Positions 9,170-17,906 of a DNA stretch of 64,000 bases are shown in pieces. The notes beneath the pieces are model-generated. The model was not told where the DNA came from and did no database searches. It saw nothing but the letters and a program-made list of their open reading frames with translations. Location of the stretch: contig CAMYJB010000002.1 in assembly GCA_947258565.1 (NCBI GenBank), positions 1-64,000 of the forward strand, given 5' to 3'. Source of the stretch: an uncultured Woeseiaceae bacterium (GTDB lineage Bacteria > Pseudomonadota > Gammaproteobacteria > Steroidobacterales > Woeseiaceae). Position numbers and translations under genes: made by a program. How positions within the stretch are numbered: position 1 is the first letter of the stretch; every line of letters begins with the position of its first letter.

Positions 9170-9577
9170 ATGGGAAAGCGAATTGAGAGCATTGAAGGTA
9201 TCGGCCCCTCCATGGGTGCCGCTCTGCGTGATGCTGGAATCGGTTCTGTTGAGAAAATGTTGGAGCTTTGCTGCGATAAAAAAGGTCGTGTAGCCATCGC
9301 CAACAAAACGCAGATTTCGGAAACGCGCATTTTAAAATGGGTAAACATGGCAGACCTGTTCCGCATCAATGGCATAGCCAGCCAATATGCGGAGCTGCTC
9401 GAAGGCGCCGGTGTCGACACGGTGAAAGAACTTCGCAACCGCAACGCGGAAAACCTGACCGCCAAGATGAATTCGGTCAACGCCGAGAAGAACCTCGTGC
9501 GCCGGACGCCGTCCGTCACCGTCGTTAACGCCTGGATCGAGCAAGCGAAAGAGCTGCCCCCCAAGGTTACGCACTAA
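9170..9577 (+). CDS. DUF4332 (helix-hairpin-helix-like) protein
   Basis: Predicted 135-residue soluble protein of the DUF4332 family. It holds two helix-hairpin-helix-like units: IEGIGPSMGAALRDAGIGSVEKML at 7-31 and INGIASQYAELLEGAGVDTVKELR at about 65-88, similar to the hairpins of DNA-binding and polymerase-accessory proteins. Its role is not known; non-specific nucleic-acid binding is plausible. GAGGAAGGAAAC precedes ATG 9170. The upstream gap contains ATTGT-CA-ACAAT (9045-9056), a possible operator. It leads into the membrane protein at 9652. Confidence 0.75.
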   Translation: MGKRIESIEGIGPSMGAALRDAGIGSVEKMLELCCDKKGRVAIANKTQISETRILKWVNMADLFRINGIASQYAELLEGAGVDTVKELRNRNAENLTAKMNSVNAEKNLVRRTPSVTVVNAWIEQAKELPPKVTH

Positions 9578-9651
9578 GAATGTCGATTGGATAGATGCCG
9601 GGGGCGCCCCTGAGGCGCCACCCGGCCCGCCTTCGAAAAGGGGGAGTCATT

Positions 9652-11112
9652 ATGGATTTCAGATCATTGCTAGAGTCGTTGCAGAATACGATGGGCGACA
9701 CCTTGCCAAGTCTATTGGCGGCCGTTGGTATCCTGATTGTCGGCTGGTTCGTCGCGGTGCTTTTACGCGCCGGTACCCGACGTCTCCTCGATGTCGTCAA
9801 TTTGAATGAACGCATTGCGTCGTCGACCGACGGCGAAGTCAATGCGGAAGCCTTGGCCGCGAGCGGCGTATTTTGGGTCGCGATGTTCTTTGTGTTGATC
9901 GCATTTTTTAATGTACTCGACCTCGAAATCGTATCTGAGCCATTACAGGCGCTCGTTACGCGTATCTTCGAATACGGTCCGAACCTTATCGCGGGTGCCG
10001 TTCTCGGCCTCGTCGCGTGGGTGCTTGCCAGCCTGGCGAAAAGGCTATTGACCAGTGCGCTGGCGACAACGACTTTGGACGAGAAGGTCAGCAGCGCGGC
10101 GGAAATGAAACCGGTCAGCCAGAATATCGGCGACGTCGTGTATTGGTTGATCCTGCTGATGTTCTTGCCTGCCATTCTTGGCACGCTTCAGCTCGAAGGG
10201 CTGCTCGTCCCCGTCCAGGGAATGGTCGATAAGATCCTCGGGATGGTGCCGAATATTTTTGCCGCTGCCGTCATCACCACAGTCGGTTGGTTCGTCGCCA
10301 AGATCCTGCGCGATCTCGTACAGAATTTGCTCGAGGTTGTAGGCTTCGACAAGATCGGCGAAAAGGCCGGTCTGACGGGGAACGTTGGATTGTCCAAACT
10401 GACGGGTCTGCTCGTGTTCATATTCGTGTTCGTACCGGCCCTGGTTGGCGCGCTGAACACCTTGCAGATCGAGGCGATCTCGCGGCCGGCGACGGATATG
10501 CTCGGCGCATTCATGGCGGCTATACCGGATATTTTCGCTGCGGCGATCATCCTCGGCATCGCGTTTTTCCTGGCTCGCTTTGTTTCGGGGCTGCTGACGA
10601 CACTCCTCGACGGAGTCGGCGTCGACGCCATTCCACAAAAACTGGGCCTGACCCAGATCGCCGATAATGAATTTTCCGTATCGACACTGGTCGGTCGAAT
10701 CGTCAGCCTCTTCATCATCCTGTTCGCCGGCGTCGAGGCCGCGAATCAGCTTGGCTTCGCACAGGTATCGGATCTCGTGACCATGTTGATCGCATTCGCA
10801 GGTCAGATTCTGCTCGGCTCGGTTATTCTGATCGCGGGTTTCTGGCTGGCGAATCTTGCGCACTCCGCTGTCATTCGTGTCAGCGGTGACGGGGCTGCAG
10901 CACTCGCGGGAATTCTGCGGGTCGCTATCCTCGGACTGGTATTCGCGATGGGACTGCGGGCGATGGGAATTGCTGATGACATCGTTAATCTCGCGTTTGG
11001 TCTCATTCTGGGCGCAATCGCTGTCGCCTTCGCCGTTTCGTTCGGCCTTGGTGGTCGCGAAGCGGCGGGCAGGCAGATGGAGTACTGGCTGTCTGCCTTG
11101 CGAGACAAATAA
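9652..11112 (+). CDS. Conserved membrane-helix-repeat protein annotated as mechanosensitive channel-like (PF05552)
   Basis: Predicted 486-residue inner-membrane protein from ATG 9652 (AAGGGGGAG upstream). It contains about five repeats of a module in which a hydrophobic segment rich in GWF or AFF runs into an amphipathic stretch: LIVGWFVAVLLRAGTRRLLDV, VGWFVAKILRDLVQNLLEVV, IAFFLARFVSGLLTTLLDGV. This is the conserved TM helix seen in MscS-related proteins, but the MscS beta domain is not visible, so channel activity is inferred only. The protein ends in a Gly/Arg-rich tail, FGLGGREAAGRQ. A lipoprotein follows 31 bases downstream. Confidence 0.8.
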   Translation: MDFRSLLESLQNTMGDTLPSLLAAVGILIVGWFVAVLLRAGTRRLLDVVNLNERIASSTDGEVNAEALAASGVFWVAMFFVLIAFFNVLDLEIVSEPLQALVTRIFEYGPNLIAGAVLGLVAWVLASLAKRLLTSALATTTLDEKVSSAAEMKPVSQNIGDVVYWLILLMFLPAILGTLQLEGLLVPVQGMVDKILGMVPNIFAAAVITTVGWFVAKILRDLVQNLLEVVGFDKIGEKAGLTGNVGLSKLTGLLVFIFVFVPALVGALNTLQIEAISRPATDMLGAFMAAIPDIFAAAIILGIAFFLARFVSGLLTTLLDGVGVDAIPQKLGLTQIADNEFSVSTLVGRIVSLFIILFAGVEAANQLGFAQVSDLVTMLIAFAGQILLGSVILIAGFWLANLAHSAVIRVSGDGAAALAGILRVAILGLVFAMGLRAMGIADDIVNLAFGLILGAIAVAFAVSFGLGGREAAGRQMEYWLSALRDK

Positions 11113-11143: not shown

Positions 11144-11494
11144 ATGCAAAATACAACGAAACTAATCCTGGCCAGCTTGATGGCGATTGTCATTGCAGGC
11201 TGCGGACGGCAGGACGAGGGTGCCAGCGATGCCGGGCAGGCAATCGAAGAAAAGGCCCAGACGACGCTGGACACTGCTGCGGAGTCAGCGAGTGAGACCG
11301 CCGATAGCGAGATGCAGAGCGCCGAGGACATGGCGAGCGAAGCAATGGACGAGGCTGGGCAGATGGCCGAGGAGGCCGAGCAACAGGCAGGCGATCTGGT
11401 CGAGCAAGCTGAGGAAATGGTCGAGGAGGCGGGAGACTTGAGCGTCGACGAGCTCGAGCAAGAAATCAAGGAAAAGTTGGGCCCCAAAGATTAG
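11144..11494 (+). CDS. Small acidic coiled-coil lipoprotein
   Basis: Predicted 116 residues. The signal peptide ends in a lipobox (MAIVIAGC, Cys about 20), so it should be lipidated and, without Asp at +2, sorted to the outer membrane. The mature part is almost wholly charged heptad-like helix rich in Glu, Ala and Gln (SETADSEMQSAEDMASEAMDE), suggesting a long coiled coil. It has no recognised domain. It sits directly after the membrane-repeat protein and just before the signalling cluster. Confidence 0.8.
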   Translation: MQNTTKLILASLMAIVIAGCGRQDEGASDAGQAIEEKAQTTLDTAAESASETADSEMQSAEDMASEAMDEAGQMAEEAEQQAGDLVEQAEEMVEEAGDLSVDELEQEIKEKLGPKD

Positions 11495-11569
11495 CCGGGG
11501 TCGGCACGGAGCAGGGATGGGGGACCATGAGCTGTATACTCTGTCAGTAATGATTCGAGTGCAGCAAGG

Positions 11570-11875
11570 ATGACGAAGAGCAGGGAAAACACGGTCGTTG
11601 TGAACGACCCTTTTGCTCGGCGGCTCATGGTCCGCTATCTCGATCATCGGCAGGATGACGTGGAAAGTCTGCGTGCCGCACTGGCCCGGCAGGATTACGA
11701 GAGCATCCGCAAGAAAGGACATAATCTGTTCGGCTCGGGCAGCGCCTACGGCCTCGACCGAGTCAGCGAACTCGGGGCCAGTCTCGAGAAGACGGCTAAA
11801 CGTGGCAACAGCGACGCGATCGGCGACCTGATCGAGGCGCTCGACGCGTTTATTCGCAATGTTCGCGTAGTCTAA
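11570..11875 (+). CDS. Stand-alone Hpt phosphotransfer protein
   Basis: Predicted 101-residue cytosolic protein with the four-helix Hpt pattern. The phospho-accepting His is residue 51 in RKKGHNLFGSGSAYGLD, with the usual GSG/A stretch after it and LEKTAKRGN on the next helix. It should pass phosphate between the hybrid kinase at 15650 (which ends in a receiver) and the OmpR-type regulator at 12094. It opens the 11570-17194 block and is followed by a 218-base gap without a gene. Confidence 0.85.
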   Translation: MTKSRENTVVVNDPFARRLMVRYLDHRQDDVESLRAALARQDYESIRKKGHNLFGSGSAYGLDRVSELGASLEKTAKRGNSDAIGDLIEALDAFIRNVRVV

Positions 11876-12093
11876 GACCCCCACTCCCGCTGCGCGTCGG
11901 GCTGGCACGGCGAACCGCCGGTTGCCTCCAGATCCGCAGCCCATGGCCCTCTCCAGCCGTACAGTTGAAGTCAAACCTGCCCAGTCGCCATAAATCGTTG
12001 TAAACTTGCCGATTGATGGGCCGACTAGTCGAATTAGAACGAGGCCTTCTGAATGATTTCACTGGAACCACGGGCCCTTTGCGGGAGGGCTGT

Positions 12094-12807
12094 TTGCGGA
12101 TAGCGTTGCTTGAAGACGATCCCGACCAGACCGAGTTGATCCGGCTCTGGCTCGAGGATGCCGAACATACTGTCGCGGCATTCGGCCTCGGCGGCGATTT
12201 GCTGCGGGCGGCGCGCCGGGACTCCTTCGATCTGTACCTGCTCGACTGGATGTTGCCGGACGTCAGCGGCATCGACGTCCTGGAGAAGTTGCGCGGCGAG
12301 TTTCGTGAGAGCACGCCGATAATGGTTGCCACGGTCAAGCAGGAAGAACGCGACATTGTGCGCGCGCTCGAGTCCGGCGCTGATGACTTCCTCGTCAAGC
12401 CCGTTCGTCGCCGTGAGCTGATCGCCCGAGTCGAGGCGATCTCTCGCCGTTCCTCGAATGCTTACGGCCAAAGCGACTCTTACGACGCCCATCCATACAC
12501 CATGGATTTGCGTCACAAGACAGCTTCGCTGGCAGGGGAGACCATCAGGCTGACAAGCCGCGAGTTCGAGCTTGCACTGTTTTTCTTCCGTCACGCAGGG
12601 CAGGCGGTATCGCGAGCCCACATTCTCGAGGCGATATGGGACATCGACAATGAAGATGTGTCGACGCGGACAGTCGACACGCACGTCAGCAGACTGAGGA
12701 AGAAGATGCAGCTCAATGAGGAAAATGGCTGGAAGTTGTCGGCTATCTATCAGCACGGCTACCGACTGGAACAGGTCGCCGGCGAACCGCTTTACGCGAA
12801 ATCCTGA
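12094..12807 (+). CDS. OmpR/PhoB-family response regulator
   Basis: Predicted 237 residues from TTG 12094, chosen because GGGAGGG lies five bases upstream and the receiver begins there (MRIALLEDDPDQ); ATG 12013 would add 27 residues with no domain. The receiver has the acidic pair E7/D8/D9, phospho-acceptor D51 (LYLLDWMLPD), the Thr in VATVK and the Lys in VKPVRR. The C-terminal winged helix has LTSREFELALFFFRHAG and RTVDTHVSRLRKK. It lies in the Hpt/GTPase/kinase block, so phosphorelay input from that kinase is likely. Confidence 0.88.
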   Translation: MRIALLEDDPDQTELIRLWLEDAEHTVAAFGLGGDLLRAARRDSFDLYLLDWMLPDVSGIDVLEKLRGEFRESTPIMVATVKQEERDIVRALESGADDFLVKPVRRRELIARVEAISRRSSNAYGQSDSYDAHPYTMDLRHKTASLAGETIRLTSREFELALFFFRHAGQAVSRAHILEAIWDIDNEDVSTRTVDTHVSRLRKKMQLNEENGWKLSAIYQHGYRLEQVAGEPLYAKS

Positions 12808-12823
12808 CACGGAGCGCGCCGCA

Positions 12824-13390
12824 ATGACAAAAAAACAATCCCGCAAGCACACTAATAAAGCCAGTGGCGGAGAAGATGTCGAGGGCAATGTCGACAAAAT
12901 TCGTGACATCCTTTTCGGCAGCCAGATGCGTGACTACGACAGTCGCATCGACGCGATGGAAAAACGCCTGGTTCAGGCGATCGAGCGCACGGCTCGCGAC
13001 ATGGAACGGCGTATCGAACGGCTCGACAAGTTCACGCGTCGCGAACTCGACAAGCTCTCCGAGCAGGTCAAGGCGGAGCGCAAGGACCGCGTGGCCGAAG
13101 TCAAGAAAAACAGCGGCGAGCTGAGCAACCTCTCCGAACAAGTCGAAGCCTGGTTCGGCGAAGTGGATGAGCAGCTGGCGCAGGAGTCGAAGGACCTGCG
13201 CAACTCACTCCATGATCAGGCGGAGGATCTGACCGCGCAGCTTCGCGAGGCGCAGAGTCAATTGCAGGCTGCGCTCCAGAAGGAAACCGGAGAGCTGCAG
13301 GACGTAAAGGTTGCGCGCGAAGACCTGGCAGAGCTCCTGACAGAGGTAGCATTGCGCCTGAACAAGGACTTCAAGCTGCCGAAGGCTTGA
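12824..13390 (+). CDS. Coiled-coil protein of the GTPase-kinase cluster
   Basis: Predicted 188-residue soluble protein from ATG 12824 (GGAG 11 bases upstream). After a basic N-terminus, residues about 20-180 are heptad-patterned helix rich in Glu, Arg, Lys and Gln (MEKRLVQAIERTARDMERRIERLDKF), so a long coiled coil. The segment DKIRDILFGSQM resembles the start of the next protein (LEELKSLLFGAEK), hinting at a shared interaction element. No enzyme motif is seen. It is 26 bases from the OmpA-like gene. Confidence 0.75.
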   Translation: MTKKQSRKHTNKASGGEDVEGNVDKIRDILFGSQMRDYDSRIDAMEKRLVQAIERTARDMERRIERLDKFTRRELDKLSEQVKAERKDRVAEVKKNSGELSNLSEQVEAWFGEVDEQLAQESKDLRNSLHDQAEDLTAQLREAQSQLQAALQKETGELQDVKVAREDLAELLTEVALRLNKDFKLPKA

Positions 13391-13416
13391 AAACAGCCAC
13401 TAGCGGCGGATTGCCA

Positions 13417-15132
13417 ATGAACGATCTCGAGGAACTAAAGAGCCTGCTATTCGGTGCCGAAAAGCAGGCGCTCGACTCGATCACCGAACGCGTGCAGAGG
13501 CCTGAAACGCGTGCGGTAGACGTAGCTGACGTCTTGCCCGAGGCCGTACGCATCAGTCATCAGCGGGGAAGAAATCTCGTCGGGACATTGCGAGACCCCG
13601 TTGGGCAATGCATCAAGGACTCGTTCCGCAGCGAACCCAAAGAATATGCCGACGCCCTCTACCCGGTAATGGGCCCGGCCATTCGCAAATCGATAATCAG
13701 CGCGCTGCGTGCCTTCGCCCAGCAAATCAATGAAACCGTCGAACAGAGCGTATCGGCCAAAGGCGTCAAGTGGCGCTTCGACGCCTGGCGGGCCGGGATT
13801 CCATTCGGCGAGTATGTCGTGCAGCGGACATTGCAGTATCGGATCGAGCAGGCCTACCTGATCAGTCGCGATAATGGCTTGCTCATCGGACACGCTCATC
13901 ACGAGGCCTCGCGCATCAAGGACAGTGATGCCGTTTCCGCGATGTTCACGGCGATACAGGATTTCATAAAGGAGTCGTTCTCGCCGGACCGCTCGGGCCG
14001 CCTGGAGACGGCGGATATGGGCGAATTCACATTGTGGGCCGTGCACGGGCCGCATGCCTTGCTGGTTTGCGTGATACGTGGTGTCCCGCCACGCACCCTG
14101 CGAGCAGACCTGAGCGCCATCCTCGAGCGAATCCACTTTCGGTATGGCGATGCCGTGCGTGAGTACACGGGAGACACCGCGACGATGCCGGGCATTGACG
14201 AGGACCTGGCTGAATGCCTGCGCTTCGAAGCGCTGAAAGCGGGCGAGGCCGAGAAACGCTGGTCCAAATCCTTGATCGCGTTGCTCGTCCTCGTCGCAGC
14301 AGCAGCCGGCTATTTCCTGTTCCATAGTTGGCAATACGGCCAACAACAGCAGGCGCTGGCGGCTGTGCTCGACAATACGCCGGGCATCCATATCGCGGAT
14401 ATCGAGCGGCACGGGCGCGTATTTGCGGTGCGTGGACTGCGTGACCCGCTCGCCGATCCGCTCGATACAATTGCAGACCGGGCGGGCCTGAGCGCCGATA
14501 GAGTCGTAGGCGTTTTGCGCCCGTTTCAGTCACTGGAAACGGACATAGTGTTTCGACGTGCCGAAAAGAGGCTCGGTGCGCCTGACACGATCGTCGTCAA
14601 TCGCGAAGCGGGCCGAATGGTATTAAACGGTACGGCCTCCGAGTCCTGGCTCGCGACGACGCAGCAACTTGCGGTCGCGGGTAGCCTCGGCGTAGACATC
14701 GATCTCAGTGGCGTCCAGTCGTCGGACCTCCTGCAATTACAAATCGATGCGGCCAAATTAGGAGATGCGGCGTTCGTTTTCACCGCTGGGTCGACGATGC
14801 GTGACGCAGACATCGAGCGCCTGGCAGCTCACGTTGCATCGCTGGCGGCTCTGATCAAAAGGGCGGAGCGACTGGGCGTTGAATATCGCATCACGGTTGT
14901 CGGGCATACCGATGCATCCGGCTCGTTGCAGGCGAATACCTCGCTCGCGGCGCAGCGCGCGGCAGTTGCGGTCGCCGAGTTGCAGAAACAGGGCATCGGC
15001 GCAGCATTCATTGAACGGTCGAGCGACATCGATCCCGGCGAGTACCAGGCGCCCAAACCCGAACTGCGCCGCGTATCGATCGCCCTCGATTTGCTTGCGA
15101 CGGAAGCATCAGGGCGTAACGGGTCCGAATGA
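13417..15132 (+). CDS. Single-pass membrane protein with OmpA-like peptidoglycan-binding C-terminus
   Basis: Predicted 571 residues from ATG 13417 (GGCGGA upstream). Residues 1-280 are soluble and rich in charge with no named domain. One transmembrane segment (about 283-305, LIALLVLVAAAAGYFLF) follows, then a BON-like region (about 320-430) and an OmpA-like peptidoglycan-binding domain (about 450-560) with GHTDASGSLQANTSLAAQRA. The topology implies a large cytoplasmic half and a cell-wall-bound periplasmic half. Its last codon overlaps the start of the GTPase (ATGA at 15129), and proteins of this type co-occur with Ras-like GTPases in some bacteria (family knowledge). It may be the membrane anchor or effector for the GTPase. 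Confidence 0.8.
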   Translation: MNDLEELKSLLFGAEKQALDSITERVQRPETRAVDVADVLPEAVRISHQRGRNLVGTLRDPVGQCIKDSFRSEPKEYADALYPVMGPAIRKSIISALRAFAQQINETVEQSVSAKGVKWRFDAWRAGIPFGEYVVQRTLQYRIEQAYLISRDNGLLIGHAHHEASRIKDSDAVSAMFTAIQDFIKESFSPDRSGRLETADMGEFTLWAVHGPHALLVCVIRGVPPRTLRADLSAILERIHFRYGDAVREYTGDTATMPGIDEDLAECLRFEALKAGEAEKRWSKSLIALLVLVAAAAGYFLFHSWQYGQQQQALAAVLDNTPGIHIADIERHGRVFAVRGLRDPLADPLDTIADRAGLSADRVVGVLRPFQSLETDIVFRRAEKRLGAPDTIVVNREAGRMVLNGTASESWLATTQQLAVAGSLGVDIDLSGVQSSDLLQLQIDAAKLGDAAFVFTAGSTMRDADIERLAAHVASLAALIKRAERLGVEYRITVVGHTDASGSLQANTSLAAQRAAVAVAELQKQGIGAAFIERSSDIDPGEYQAPKPELRRVSIALDLLATEASGRNGSE

Positions 15133-15647
15133 CCCAGGTCAGTTCGAAGGTTTGCATACTCGGCGACTTTGCAGTCGGCAAGACCAGTACGGTCGAGCGC
15201 TTTGTCAACAATCAGTTTTCCGACAAATACCTCACGACAATCGGGGTCAAAGTCGACACCAAGGAACTGTCCCTGGCAGACGGCCTGATCCTGAAACTGG
15301 TGCTCTGGGATGTCGCCGGTGCGGATCGCTTTGGCGAGCTGGAACTCAACTACCTGCGCGGTGCGTCGGGACACTTGCTGGTCGCCGACGGGACTCGGCC
15401 AGAGACGATCGAGTCAGCGCGACGGCTGAGAGAACAGGCGGTGGACCGTTACGGCGACCTGCCGTTTGTATTCCTGGTGAACAAGGCGGATCTAAAGGAC
15501 GCCTGGGAAGCAGATGACGCGGAAATCACCGCCCTCCGGGACGAGATGGATGATGTGTTCGTTACCAGCGCCAAGACTGGTGAGAACGTTGCAGAGGCTA
15601 TAGAACGGCTGGGTGAACGTATCGCAGCGCGCGAGTTTTCTCTCTAG
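15129..15647 (+). CDS. Ras/Rab-like small GTPase
   Basis: Predicted 172-residue GTPase with the full set of G motifs: G1 GDFAVGKTS (K18), switch I TTIG (36-39), G3 WDVAG (60-64), G4 NKAD (118-121), G5 SAK (147-149). It resembles eukaryotic Rab/Ras more than translational GTPases and is of the size of MglA/Rup-type bacterial members. The residue corresponding to Ras Gln61 is Ala65 (DVAGAD), which predicts slow intrinsic hydrolysis and need of a GAP (inference). It is translationally coupled to the OmpA-like protein and two bases ahead of the hybrid kinase. Confidence 0.92.
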   Translation: MTQVSSKVCILGDFAVGKTSTVERFVNNQFSDKYLTTIGVKVDTKELSLADGLILKLVLWDVAGADRFGELELNYLRGASGHLLVADGTRPETIESARRLREQAVDRYGDLPFVFLVNKADLKDAWEADDAEITALRDEMDDVFVTSAKTGENVAEAIERLGERIAAREFSL

Positions 15648-15649
15648 CC

Positions 15650-17194
15650 ATGATCTTTCCGGACCGCGTAAACGGCTATTTGCAGGCGAGCTTCGAAACC
15701 GAGCGTCGACCGTTCTGCTTTCTCGTCGATCAGGAAAACCGCTTGCTCGATTCCTGGGGGGATGCTTCTGCGCACCACTTCGAGAATCTGGATATCGGCG
15801 ACGCGATGGATGAATTCGCGCCCTATCTGGTGGGGTTGCTCGATGGCAGCTCTGTGCGGCTGCCATTTGTTACGACGTCGTCGGGCACCGTCGAGGTGCA
15901 CATCATTCCCGATGGTGACAACTATTATGTGATCGTAATGGACGCCGGCGAAGAACACTCGTCGCATCGGGATCGGCAACAGGTTGCGAACGAAGTACGG
16001 TTGCTGCACGCGAGTCAGAAAAAGCTCATCGACAAACAGCGGAGCCTGATCAGCGAATTGGTCGAGACAAAGACGGAGCTGGATCATCAGAGACTGGAGG
16101 CGGAGCGGACTAATGCCAGCAAGAGCCAATTCATTGCAACGATGTCGCACGAGTTTCGAACGCCACTGACATCAATCATCAATTATGCGGAACTTGCCCT
16201 GGAAGATGGCACAGGCGTTGAAGTGATACGCAAGAGTGCCGAAGCCATCGCACGCGCGGGGCGGCATCTGAACCAACTTGTGGATACTGTGCTCGACGAG
16301 GCGCAATTGGAGACCGGCCAGATCAAGCTCACCGAGCGCGCTTTCGATCTACGCGAATTGTTTGACGATATCGCCGCGATCATGGCCCCGCTGGCCGCCG
16401 ACAAAGGTCTGTCCTTCGGGATTTTCGTTGCCGGTGACGTCCCCGAGACGATCTTTGCCGATGACGTCTGTCTGCGGCAAATACTGATCAATCTGTTGGG
16501 CAACGGGATCAAGTTCACGGAAACCGGCCGTGTTCGGCTCGACATAAGTTGGGAGCACGACACGTTGCAGGCAACGGTCACGGATACCGGACCCGGCATA
16601 CCGGCCGAGGACCAGGAGCGCATTTTCCATGCCTTCGAACGGGCAGGAGATCTCGATCGGCGTAGCCGGCCTGGCACGGGACTCGGACTGACAATCTCGC
16701 GTAAACTCGCGCGCCTCATGGGAGGCGATATTCAACTCAGCTCGCAGTATGGGAACGGTTGTTCGGTGACAGTCTTTGTTCGCGCCACAGTTCCCGAGAG
16801 GGATCGCGAGCCCGCCTTACCCGAACCAGCGGAGGAGTTCCGCGCACCGCGGCCAACGACGATACTCGTCTGTGATGACGACGAAGACTTGCTCGCCCTG
16901 GCCGAGTACTACCTGCAACGTGCCGGGTACGGACTGCTCATTGCCCGTGACGGCGAGGAGGCCGTGCAAAAGGCCCTGGCCTACGTTCCCGATCTCGTAT
17001 TGATGGATATCAATGTGCCGCGGCTGACCGGTTCGGAAGCGGCGGCAAAACTGCGCGCCAAAGGCTTCGAGGCGCCAATTCTCGCGCTGACAGCTTCCGA
17101 CGTGCGCAAGCTCGATAGTGACGACTTCTCCGGCAGCCTGCGCAAGCCAATCCAGATGCCGAGGCTGCTTGCCCAAATCCAGACCTATATCTAG
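15650..17194 (+). CDS. Soluble hybrid histidine kinase (PAS-like, HisKA, HATPase, receiver)
   Basis: Predicted 514 residues. Order: a PAS-like sensor (about 1-105), coiled coil (110-155), dimerisation domain with His167 in SHEFRTPL, ATPase domain with N-box NLLGNGIKF, DTGPGIP and GTGLGL, and a C-terminal receiver with D453 in LVLMDINVP. No membrane segment is seen, so it probably senses an internal signal or is recruited by partners. The receiver makes an Hpt step necessary for a multistep relay, which the protein at 11570 can supply. It is two bases after the GTPase stop and closes the block. Confidence 0.9.
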   Translation: MIFPDRVNGYLQASFETERRPFCFLVDQENRLLDSWGDASAHHFENLDIGDAMDEFAPYLVGLLDGSSVRLPFVTTSSGTVEVHIIPDGDNYYVIVMDAGEEHSSHRDRQQVANEVRLLHASQKKLIDKQRSLISELVETKTELDHQRLEAERTNASKSQFIATMSHEFRTPLTSIINYAELALEDGTGVEVIRKSAEAIARAGRHLNQLVDTVLDEAQLETGQIKLTERAFDLRELFDDIAAIMAPLAADKGLSFGIFVAGDVPETIFADDVCLRQILINLLGNGIKFTETGRVRLDISWEHDTLQATVTDTGPGIPAEDQERIFHAFERAGDLDRRSRPGTGLGLTISRKLARLMGGDIQLSSQYGNGCSVTVFVRATVPERDREPALPEPAEEFRAPRPTTILVCDDDEDLLALAEYYLQRAGYGLLIARDGEEAVQKALAYVPDLVLMDINVPRLTGSEAAAKLRAKGFEAPILALTASDVRKLDSDDFSGSLRKPIQMPRLLAQIQTYI

Positions 17195-17501
17195 GTTCGG
17201 CTGGCACCGCCCGCGAGGCGATTGTTAAAGATTGTTGCAACTCGGTTTAGCGGTCGCTGCGGCCGATATTATCTACCGCAATTGAGCCGCCCAAGCCTTT
17301 TGAGGAAGTCGTTCTGTTGACCGAGATCCGGGACGCGCTGCGGCGGTCGTGACAGCGCGGCCACAAGTCAGGACGATGGTGCACGTGCAATCCGCCGGCG
17401 ACTCATCGATACTGGCGCCCTGACCACCGGGACCCGGTGAGCCCGGTGGACGCGAGAGAAGGACGAACAACAAGAGCAAGAGCGCGAAAACGTCGAGAGA
17501 G
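17195..17501. other. Intergenic region with one inverted repeat
   Basis: About 300 bases with no credible gene. An inverted repeat CCACCGGG (17424-17431) / CCCGGTGG (17442-17449) could be a hairpin ending the kinase operon or a regulator site for the next gene; there is no T run. Nothing else is recognisable. Confidence 0.4.
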
Positions 17502-17549
17502 CTGGATCTAACGGGGTTTCTGTTCCGGCTCGTCGCGACGACATTACTT

Positions 17550-17906
17550 GTGCTGGCGACTTACAATCCCAGCGGTTTTTCCTTCGCGCACTGGGTGAAG
17601 ACGGCATTCGCCGAAAATGGGCTGGGACCTGAACATTTCGTGGTTGGCGTGGTACTCGTCATCGGCTGGATCGTTCTGCTGTCTGCCACCTACCGGTCGA
17701 TGGGTCTGCTCGGGCTGATCCTGGGCGCCGCAATGTTTGGTGGCCTGGTCTGGCTCCTGGTCGATATCGGCGTCCTGTCGATCGACTCGACGTCCGAGCT
17801 GACCTGGATCATCCTGATCGTGGCATCAATCGTGCTCGCGATCGGCCTGAGCTGGTCGCACGTCTGGCGCCGCCTAACCGGGCAATTCGAGGTCGACGGC
17901 GACTGA
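17550..17906 (+). CDS. DUF6524-like small membrane protein, N-terminus uncertain
   Basis: From GTG 17550 the product has 118 residues with membrane segments at about 30-50, 55-74 and 83-105, matching the DUF6524 pattern (ATYNPSGFSFAHW, then RSMGLLGLILGAAMFGGLVWLL). Family members normally begin about 15 residues earlier with a first helix. Here the frame continues upstream as LDLTGFLFRLVATTLLVLATYNP, but no ATG, GTG or TTG occurs back to the TGA at 17421. CTG 17502 (GAGAGA upstream) may be a rare start. Function unknown. Confidence 0.6.
   Translation: MLATYNPSGFSFAHWVKTAFAENGLGPEHFVVGVVLVIGWIVLLSATYRSMGLLGLILGAAMFGGLVWLLVDIGVLSIDSTSELTWIILIVASIVLAIGLSWSHVWRRLTGQFEVDGD

Follow-up and report, generated by a model that had tools for sequence, protein, structure and literature searches.

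A six-gene locus with a small GTPase and phosphorelay parts

We analyzed a 64,000-nucleotide stretch of DNA (the window) from an uncultured Woeseiaceae bacterium (assembly GCA_947258565.1, contig CAMYJB010000002.1) and focused on a locus that encodes a Ras-like small GTPase together with the parts of a phosphorelay. The open frames of the window showed six intact genes on the + strand at 11570-17194, without internal stops (Table 1). The first-pass annotation of this DNA had named six co-directional genes here, with the same identities, and both the open frames and the Pfam matches bear it out. The two tight junctions that it pointed to are also present: an ATGA overlap at 15129 joins the OmpA-like and GTPase genes, and 2 bases separate the GTPase stop from the kinase ATG. 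The intergenic gaps are, in order, 218 bases (Hpt to regulator), then 16, 26, -4 and 2 bases. According to its start context, the regulator is best started at TTG 12094, behind GGGAGGG; counted from this start its acceptor aspartate is Asp51, which is Asp52 in the residue count of the conservation alignment. The sole sigma-70-like site in 11400-17600 lies at 17538, outside the module, while 1.9 such sites are expected by chance.

Table 1. Genes of the locus (window coordinates)
Feature	Coordinates	Strand	Evidence and notes
Hpt protein, 101 aa, phospho-acceptor His51	11570..11875	+	Pfam Hpt 39.9 bits; His51 in 32/32 aligned Hpt proteins, window included
OmpR/PhoB-type response regulator, 237 aa, likely TTG start	12094..12807	+	Response_reg 88.2, Trans_reg_C 75.4 bits; phospho-acceptor Asp51
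Coiled-coil protein, 188 aa, N-terminal DKIR-ILFG motif	12824..13390	+	Alignment A3; no Pfam family above cut-off
OmpA-like membrane protein, 571 aa	13417..15132	+	OmpA domain 29.4 bits (cut-off 27.2); hydropathy peak; alignments A1, A4, A5
Ras/Rab-like small GTPase, 172 aa, Group 1 Rup type, G3 motif WDVAGAD	15129..15647	+	Ras 101.9 bits
Soluble hybrid histidine kinase, 514 aa	15650..17194	+	Pfam HisKA, HATPase_c, Response_reg; His167, Asp453

The annotation's claim of a complete phosphorelay stands as far as the set of parts is concerned, since kinase, receiver, Hpt and regulator are all present with conserved phospho-residues. Like the Hpt histidine (Table 1), the kinase His167 (46/46) and the acceptor aspartate of the regulator (38/38) are invariant. 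Asp453 of the kinase receiver is found in 91% of 46 proteins, some of which have no receiver.

The GTPase and its partner proteins

The GTPase of the window scores far better as Ras (Table 1) than as Arf (42 bits), and the best 60 of its 639 PDB profile matches are Rab-type proteins. Patterns for G1, G4 and G5 are present in 41, 47 and 46 of 49 GTPases, respectively. The catalytic glutamine after the G3 glycine is missing in 49/49 (41 by pattern, 8 from the printed exceptions). Alignment rows, each time plus the window, were 13 of 17 sequences in A4, 47 of 54 in A5, 57 of 60 in A6 and 48 of 63 in A7; A8 (39) and A11 (18) were picked by hand for spread.

The membrane protein starts with a half of unknown family (residues ~1-280, the N-half), followed by a transmembrane (TM) helix near 284-304, a BON-matching region and a C-terminal OmpA domain. 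Hydropathy gave one strong peak, a hydrophobic helix that separates the conserved N-half from the OmpA end; the other five proteins have no predicted membrane helix. Pfam scans matched OmpA in 47/48 members and BON in 2/48. A homologue from a record labelled Dehalococcoidia (L096:6274-7284) ends just after the TM helix and lacks the OmpA domain, leaving N-half and anchor; this truncation is consistent with an N-half inside the cell and an OmpA domain outside, as read from sequence. No credible PDB profile match was obtained for the N-half. A match to the Fuz/MON1 longin domain appeared in 1/48 members (E 0.0034) and was absent from ten N-halves scanned singly; we discounted it because 48 scans can yield such an E value by chance.

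The N terminus of the coiled-coil protein resembles that of the OmpA-like protein in a profile match of 19 columns. Both carry a D-K-I/L-K/R..LLFG motif (window 12824-13000 and 13417-13500, respectively), which is perhaps a docking helix common to the two proteins.

Comparison with Group 1 Rup and other GTPase systems

Work published by Wuichet and Sogaard-Andersen in 2014 describes a Group 1 Rup neighborhood made of a coiled-coil protein, a GTPase, an output protein and a protein in which an unknown domain, a TM helix and an OmpA domain are joined; a membrane-signaling complex was proposed for it (PMC4316618). According to the same account, Group 1 Rup GTPases lack the G3 glutamine and are very similar to Rab/Ran/Ras/Rho. 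Their output proteins are histidine kinases or cyclic di-GMP enzymes with an invariant glutamine in the N-terminal region, and its authors suggested that this residue, acting in trans, may matter since the GTPase has none of its own (PMC4316618). No Rup protein had been experimentally characterized as of 2014 (PMC4316618), and our searches of an open-licence literature collection listed no later functional study of any of them.

The window locus shares these features. Its GTPase is a single-domain protein of less than 240 amino acids (172) with Ras-like G motifs and no catalytic glutamine in G3. Its neighbors include genes for a cytoplasmic coiled-coil protein (12824-13390) and for a protein that combines an unknown domain, an inner-membrane helix and an OmpA domain. 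The putative output protein, a histidine kinase as in some published neighborhoods, has an invariant glutamine in its N-terminal region (Gln110), which may be the published glutamine. The first-pass annotation knew of no described system with this set; this does not hold for the core, because four of the six gene types correspond to the neighborhood already described in 2014 (PMC4316618).

What sets the window apart from the published neighborhoods is that Hpt and an OmpR-type regulator accompany its hybrid kinase, as does a receiver-Ser/Thr kinase in some relatives. Neither "Hpt" nor "phosphotransfer" appears as a whole word in the main text of PMC4316618, and its passages on Rup contain neither an OmpR or NtrC regulator nor a receiver-Ser/Thr kinase; class III cyclase and HD-domain outputs are likewise missing from those passages. 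Compared with these parts of the 2014 account, the wiring to a full phosphorelay, mainly in one gammaproteobacterial branch, looks new. We regard it as an even call whether the window locus is, mechanism included, a Group 1 Rup GTPase system with a complete phosphorelay as its output.

Two other systems combine similar parts. Actinobacterial conservons, or AGPS (CvnA-D), are operons of a kinase-like protein, a Ras-like GTPase and accessory proteins (PMC13343842). They pair an MglA-family GTPase with an MglB-type roadblock protein (PMC13343842) and have no response regulator (PMC4316618), whereas the window has a Rup/Rab-like GTPase, a partner with an OmpA end and a full relay. The MglA-MglB-RomR polarity module of Myxococcus also joins a small GTPase with its regulator and a receiver-domain protein (PMC4316618), but it differs from the window in GTPase family, partner families and gene linkage. 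No Robl_LC7 match was found at E 0.001 in the whole genome to which the window belongs, and the window membrane protein reached 13.7 bits against this family (cut-off 23), in its OmpA region. Given the Pfam matches of the six proteins together with this absence, we rejected an assignment of the locus to the MglA/MglB systems or the conservons.

Conservation of the locus in related genomes

The membrane protein gave a strong match in 19 of 60 related genomes, a set to which the window's own genome belongs, and the GTPase was found in the same 19. Two further genomes (G031 and G050) had only a weak match, in the OmpA end of the membrane protein. No GTPase was found at E 1e-20 in the other 41/60 genomes, G031 and G050 included, so that the module is patchy even within this genus-level group.

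We fetched 19 of the 21 places, leaving out the window itself and G031; the G050 place held none of the genes. All six genes were present in the same order and on the same strand in 16/18 neighborhoods. The remaining two (L043 and L048) lack only the kinase, and the contig ends there; the arrangement is therefore more than chance. The first-pass annotation had left conservation of the whole set, in order, to a search across genomes, and these neighborhoods now provide it. A chance cluster peculiar to one strain, which would have undone its proposal, is ruled out by the 19/60 genomes that carry membrane protein and GTPase and by the 16/18 kept orders; nor do the GTPase and kinase genes come apart in these relatives, while some distant loci are indeed without the GTPase (see below). 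In at least 4/18 neighborhoods (L044, L045, L046 and L049), a receiver-Ser/Thr kinase gene lies between Hpt and regulator; its identity was confirmed by Pfam in another locus (L073).

A search across 369 genomes of the class found the membrane-protein N-half in 30 and the GTPase in 33, with 29 genomes having both (hypergeometric P ~1e-37, ignoring kinship). In 27 of the 30 genomes with the membrane protein, the two genes are adjacent on the same contig. Whole-genome searches score only candidates from a loose first look, and misses are possible. GTPase homologues with one in-frame stop inside the match were seen in G215 and G326 (three hits, family f172), G423 (f25) and G287 (f127). The stop is TAG in G287 and TGA elsewhere, including all three f172 hits.

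To look further afield, we scanned contigs of named genomes and retained 79 distinct loci, the best of 208 relatives by likeness to the query, so that the set is biased to close kin. Neighbor genes were called with profiles built from L033-L050, which may miss distant homologues. The nearest named relative, L052, from a record labelled uncultured Woeseiaceae bacterium, matches at 83% in the membrane-protein N-half. Labels among the 79 loci include Pseudomonadota, Cyanobacteriota, Acidobacteriota, Chloroflexota and Myxococcota. The coiled coil was present in 69 loci, absent in 5 and untestable at contig ends in 5; the corresponding figures are 64, 10 and 5 for the GTPase and 58, 13 and 8 for the kinase N-terminal domain (N-domain).

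Some of these loci depart from the usual form. Thiotrichales-type loci (L085, L088, L089, L090, L094, L095, L099, L101, L106, L110, L115, L123, L124 and L126) encode an enlarged OmpA-like protein of about 790-1470 amino acids in which N-half matches are repeated, and the adjoining GTPase gene is often missing. A Myxococcota-labelled Rup locus (L112:5996-7393) has a receiver-histidine kinase gene directly 5' of the coiled-coil gene and thus two kinases in the cluster. One locus labelled Rhodospirillales (L057) carries the gammaproteobacterial six-gene type, and its label looks wrong; another record (L076) is labelled Rhodospirillaceae.

A portable domain with an invariant glutamine

The kinase consists of the N-domain (~1-105), Gln110 just behind it, a linker helix, HisKA (His167), HATPase and a receiver (Asp453). 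Gln110 is invariant in the 58/58 N-domain rows of alignment A6. Hydropathy predicts no membrane helix and Pfam recognizes no domain before the linker, so that input to the kinase probably passes through the N-domain.

In the 58 loci with an N-domain, the first gene that carries it encodes a kinase in 43 and a non-kinase protein in 15; in 2 of these 15 (L085 and L089) a second copy sits on a kinase. Three of the 15 non-kinase proteins were scanned and showed a class III cyclase domain (L098), an HD domain (L130) and no Pfam match (L109). Five others are close to the bare domain, at 133-136 amino acids (L091, L104, L122, L127 and L128). The N-domain is therefore a portable module.

These free N-domain proteins are what would be expected of a separable GTPase regulator, and they bring in the reverse order of control. 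The phosphorelay would then govern the GTPase, with the N-domain as a GTPase-activating protein (GAP) regulated by phosphorylation of the kinase. GTPase, coiled coil and wall anchor would form an effector that positions envelope machinery in the manner of MglA, and the OmpR-type regulator would be a side or feedback branch. In line with this, the conservon GTPase has been proposed as an output, and MglA regulates motility and polarity (PMC4316618). However, an N-domain that precedes catalytic outputs as diverse as a kinase, a class III cyclase and an HD domain fits an input module better, and the kinase has no other sensor that Pfam recognizes. We consider this reverse flow unlikely.

Distribution of the phosphorelay genes

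The 79 loci were split into L052-L083 (32 loci) and L084-L130 (47 loci) after inspection of the table. In the first set, the OmpR-type regulator lies upstream in 32/32 loci and Hpt in 28/32, the other four being untestable; a receiver-Ser/Thr kinase is found upstream in 8/32. In the second set, 3 loci (L084, L113 and L119) have Hpt upstream, 33 lack it there and 11 are untestable; for the OmpR-type regulator in this position the counts are 1 (L111), 40 and 6, respectively. In L084, L113 and L119 the regulator is of NtrC type. The Hpt of L111 is encoded downstream; in L082 an Hpt-receiver-GGDEF protein is encoded there, and in L100 and L102 an Hpt-receiver gene that bears a GGDEF motif is convergent.

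A tree of 64 module GTPases, all found in this work, places the 30 usable rows from L052-L083 and the window on the same side of a single branch (support 82/80, not starred). Next to them, on forks that are weak (94/55 and 80/50), are L084, L111, L113 and L119, along with the Hpt-less L086 and L087. Based on this position and on the distribution of Hpt and regulator, the relay seems to have been elaborated within one part of the Rup family, with the regulator exchanged, the forks that bear on a single origin being weak.

The lack of Hpt and regulator in most of the less similar Rup loci (L084-L130) makes them look like an add-on, as would be the case if a hybrid kinase-Hpt-OmpR pathway of the ordinary kind and a Rup module were no more than neighbors, co-regulated in one operon and not directly coupled. 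We find this very unlikely, since the kinase itself bears the Rup-associated N-domain, its gene follows the GTPase gene almost directly in six-gene loci, and Hpt travels with the module beside a different, NtrC-like regulator in L084, L113 and L119.

Comparison with roadblock and longin domains

Both the kinase N-domain and the membrane-protein N-half could be divergent domains of roadblock/longin type and could together make up a split regulatory platform on the GTPase, comparable to MglB or to the longin pairs of eukaryotes; we hold this to be doubtful. From 38 roadblock hits, one was skipped for in-frame stops and two were dropped for a wrong frame. The 35 sequences left were split into subsets of 22 and 13 by a motif of our own choice.

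Several signals point toward such a relationship. Against the 35 roadblock sequences, the kinase N-domain scored 25.6 over 69 columns in hhalign, the best of eleven profiles; the next were Hpt at 17.8 and PAS at 15.7, and 200 column shuffles reached at most 15.5. When segments of 140 residues were ranked, the N-domain gave an area under the curve (AUC) of 0.86 with one roadblock subset (60 shuffles at most 0.67), and the N-half gave 0.97 with the other (shuffled maximum 0.90). Three MglB sequences are among the nine PDB matches of the N-domain profile, at E 0.98-1.4.

However, none of these signals is significant as a database match. The AUC of the N-domain falls to 0.42 with the other subset and to 0.64 with all 35 sequences, while the N-half gives 0.81 with the first subset (shuffled maximum 0.90), a preference opposite to that of the N-domain. 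The measure is also high for unrelated pairs, such as GTPase and roadblock (0.88) or coiled coil and PAS (0.94). In a ranking of 3106 open reading frames, the best E values were 2.6 for the N-domain and 3.2 for the N-half, neither family falling below 2. The hhalign score of the N-half with roadblock (19.7) is lower than that of an Hpt decoy (24.0) and than the shuffled maximum (23.6), and aligning the N-half with the N-domain gives no match (12.1). When the first nine roadblock rows were used, hhalign assigned probabilities of 3% and 13%. Pfam gave no roadblock match above cut-off, in two of the scans among the 25 commonest families listed out of 52 and 43. We rejected a PAS fold of the N-domain (hhalign 15.7, with 1/40 shuffles as high; AUC 0.57).

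A fuller version would have a Rab-like GTPase governed by roadblock/longin-type domains that are split between the wall-anchored protein and the kinase, the latter supplying the glutamine, so that GTP hydrolysis on an envelope platform gates the phosphorelay. This we consider distinctly unlikely. Zhang, Iyer and Aravind have argued for a descent of longin domains from MglB-like roadblock domains (PMC3521125), and a roadblock fold in the Rup partners would for that reason matter for the origin of Rab regulation. If true, Rup GTPases would have roadblock-type partners, Group 1 Rup would gain its missing GAP, and pairing of the Rab-longin type would be present in bacteria.

Flanking genes

Two genes lie upstream of the module, at 9170-9577 and 9595-11112 of the window. 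They encode a DUF4332 protein and a mechanosensitive-channel-like protein with TM repeats. A DUF4332 homologue lies upstream of the module in 11/11 loci L033-L043, with the channel-like protein beside it in L035, L036, L039 and L042 as in the window. Neither was found in the fetched stretches of L044-L050, some of which end close by. A functional link of these neighbors to envelope tension is possible.

Discussion

We favor, among the readings above, a Group 1 Rup system that feeds a phosphorelay. The parts, their linkage and their conserved residues are observations made on sequence, from which we infer every arrow of the mechanism that follows. The six genes may encode a wall-anchored GTPase switch. 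The OmpA-like protein would sit in the inner membrane, bind peptidoglycan and report the state of the envelope to its own cytoplasmic half. This N-half, with the coiled-coil protein, would recruit the GTPase or set its nucleotide state. The GTPase, which has no catalytic glutamine of its own, would dock on the kinase N-domain, where the invariant Gln110 may complete GTP hydrolysis in trans; the N-domain would then be effector and GAP at once. Docking would switch the kinase, and phosphate would pass from His167 to Asp453, to His51 of Hpt and to the OmpR-type regulator, resulting in a change of transcription. In other branches, the output behind this N-domain is a class III cyclase, an HD-domain protein or a plain kinase.

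Several observations weigh against a coupled system of this kind. The OmpA match of the window protein is only 2.2 bits above its cut-off. Membrane protein and GTPase lie on different contigs in G341 and G326, the whole-genome search found no GTPase in G235 despite its membrane protein, and 4 of the 33 GTPase genomes (G063, G123, G172 and G423) gave no membrane protein. Among the 79 loci, 10 lack a GTPase next to the membrane protein on contigs long enough to hold one; each of these records is labelled as a Thiotrichales-type sulfur bacterium, and their membrane proteins measure 849-1471 amino acids. Hpt, at its distance upstream of the regulator, may have its own promoter. Finally, the sequence is compatible with flow in either direction between GTPase and kinase.

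For a family without any characterized protein as of 2014, the branch described here ends in a DNA-binding regulator. Because this branch leads through a phosphorelay to such a regulator, GTPase activity could be read out as transcription, so that both the in-trans glutamine and the envelope input would be directly testable.

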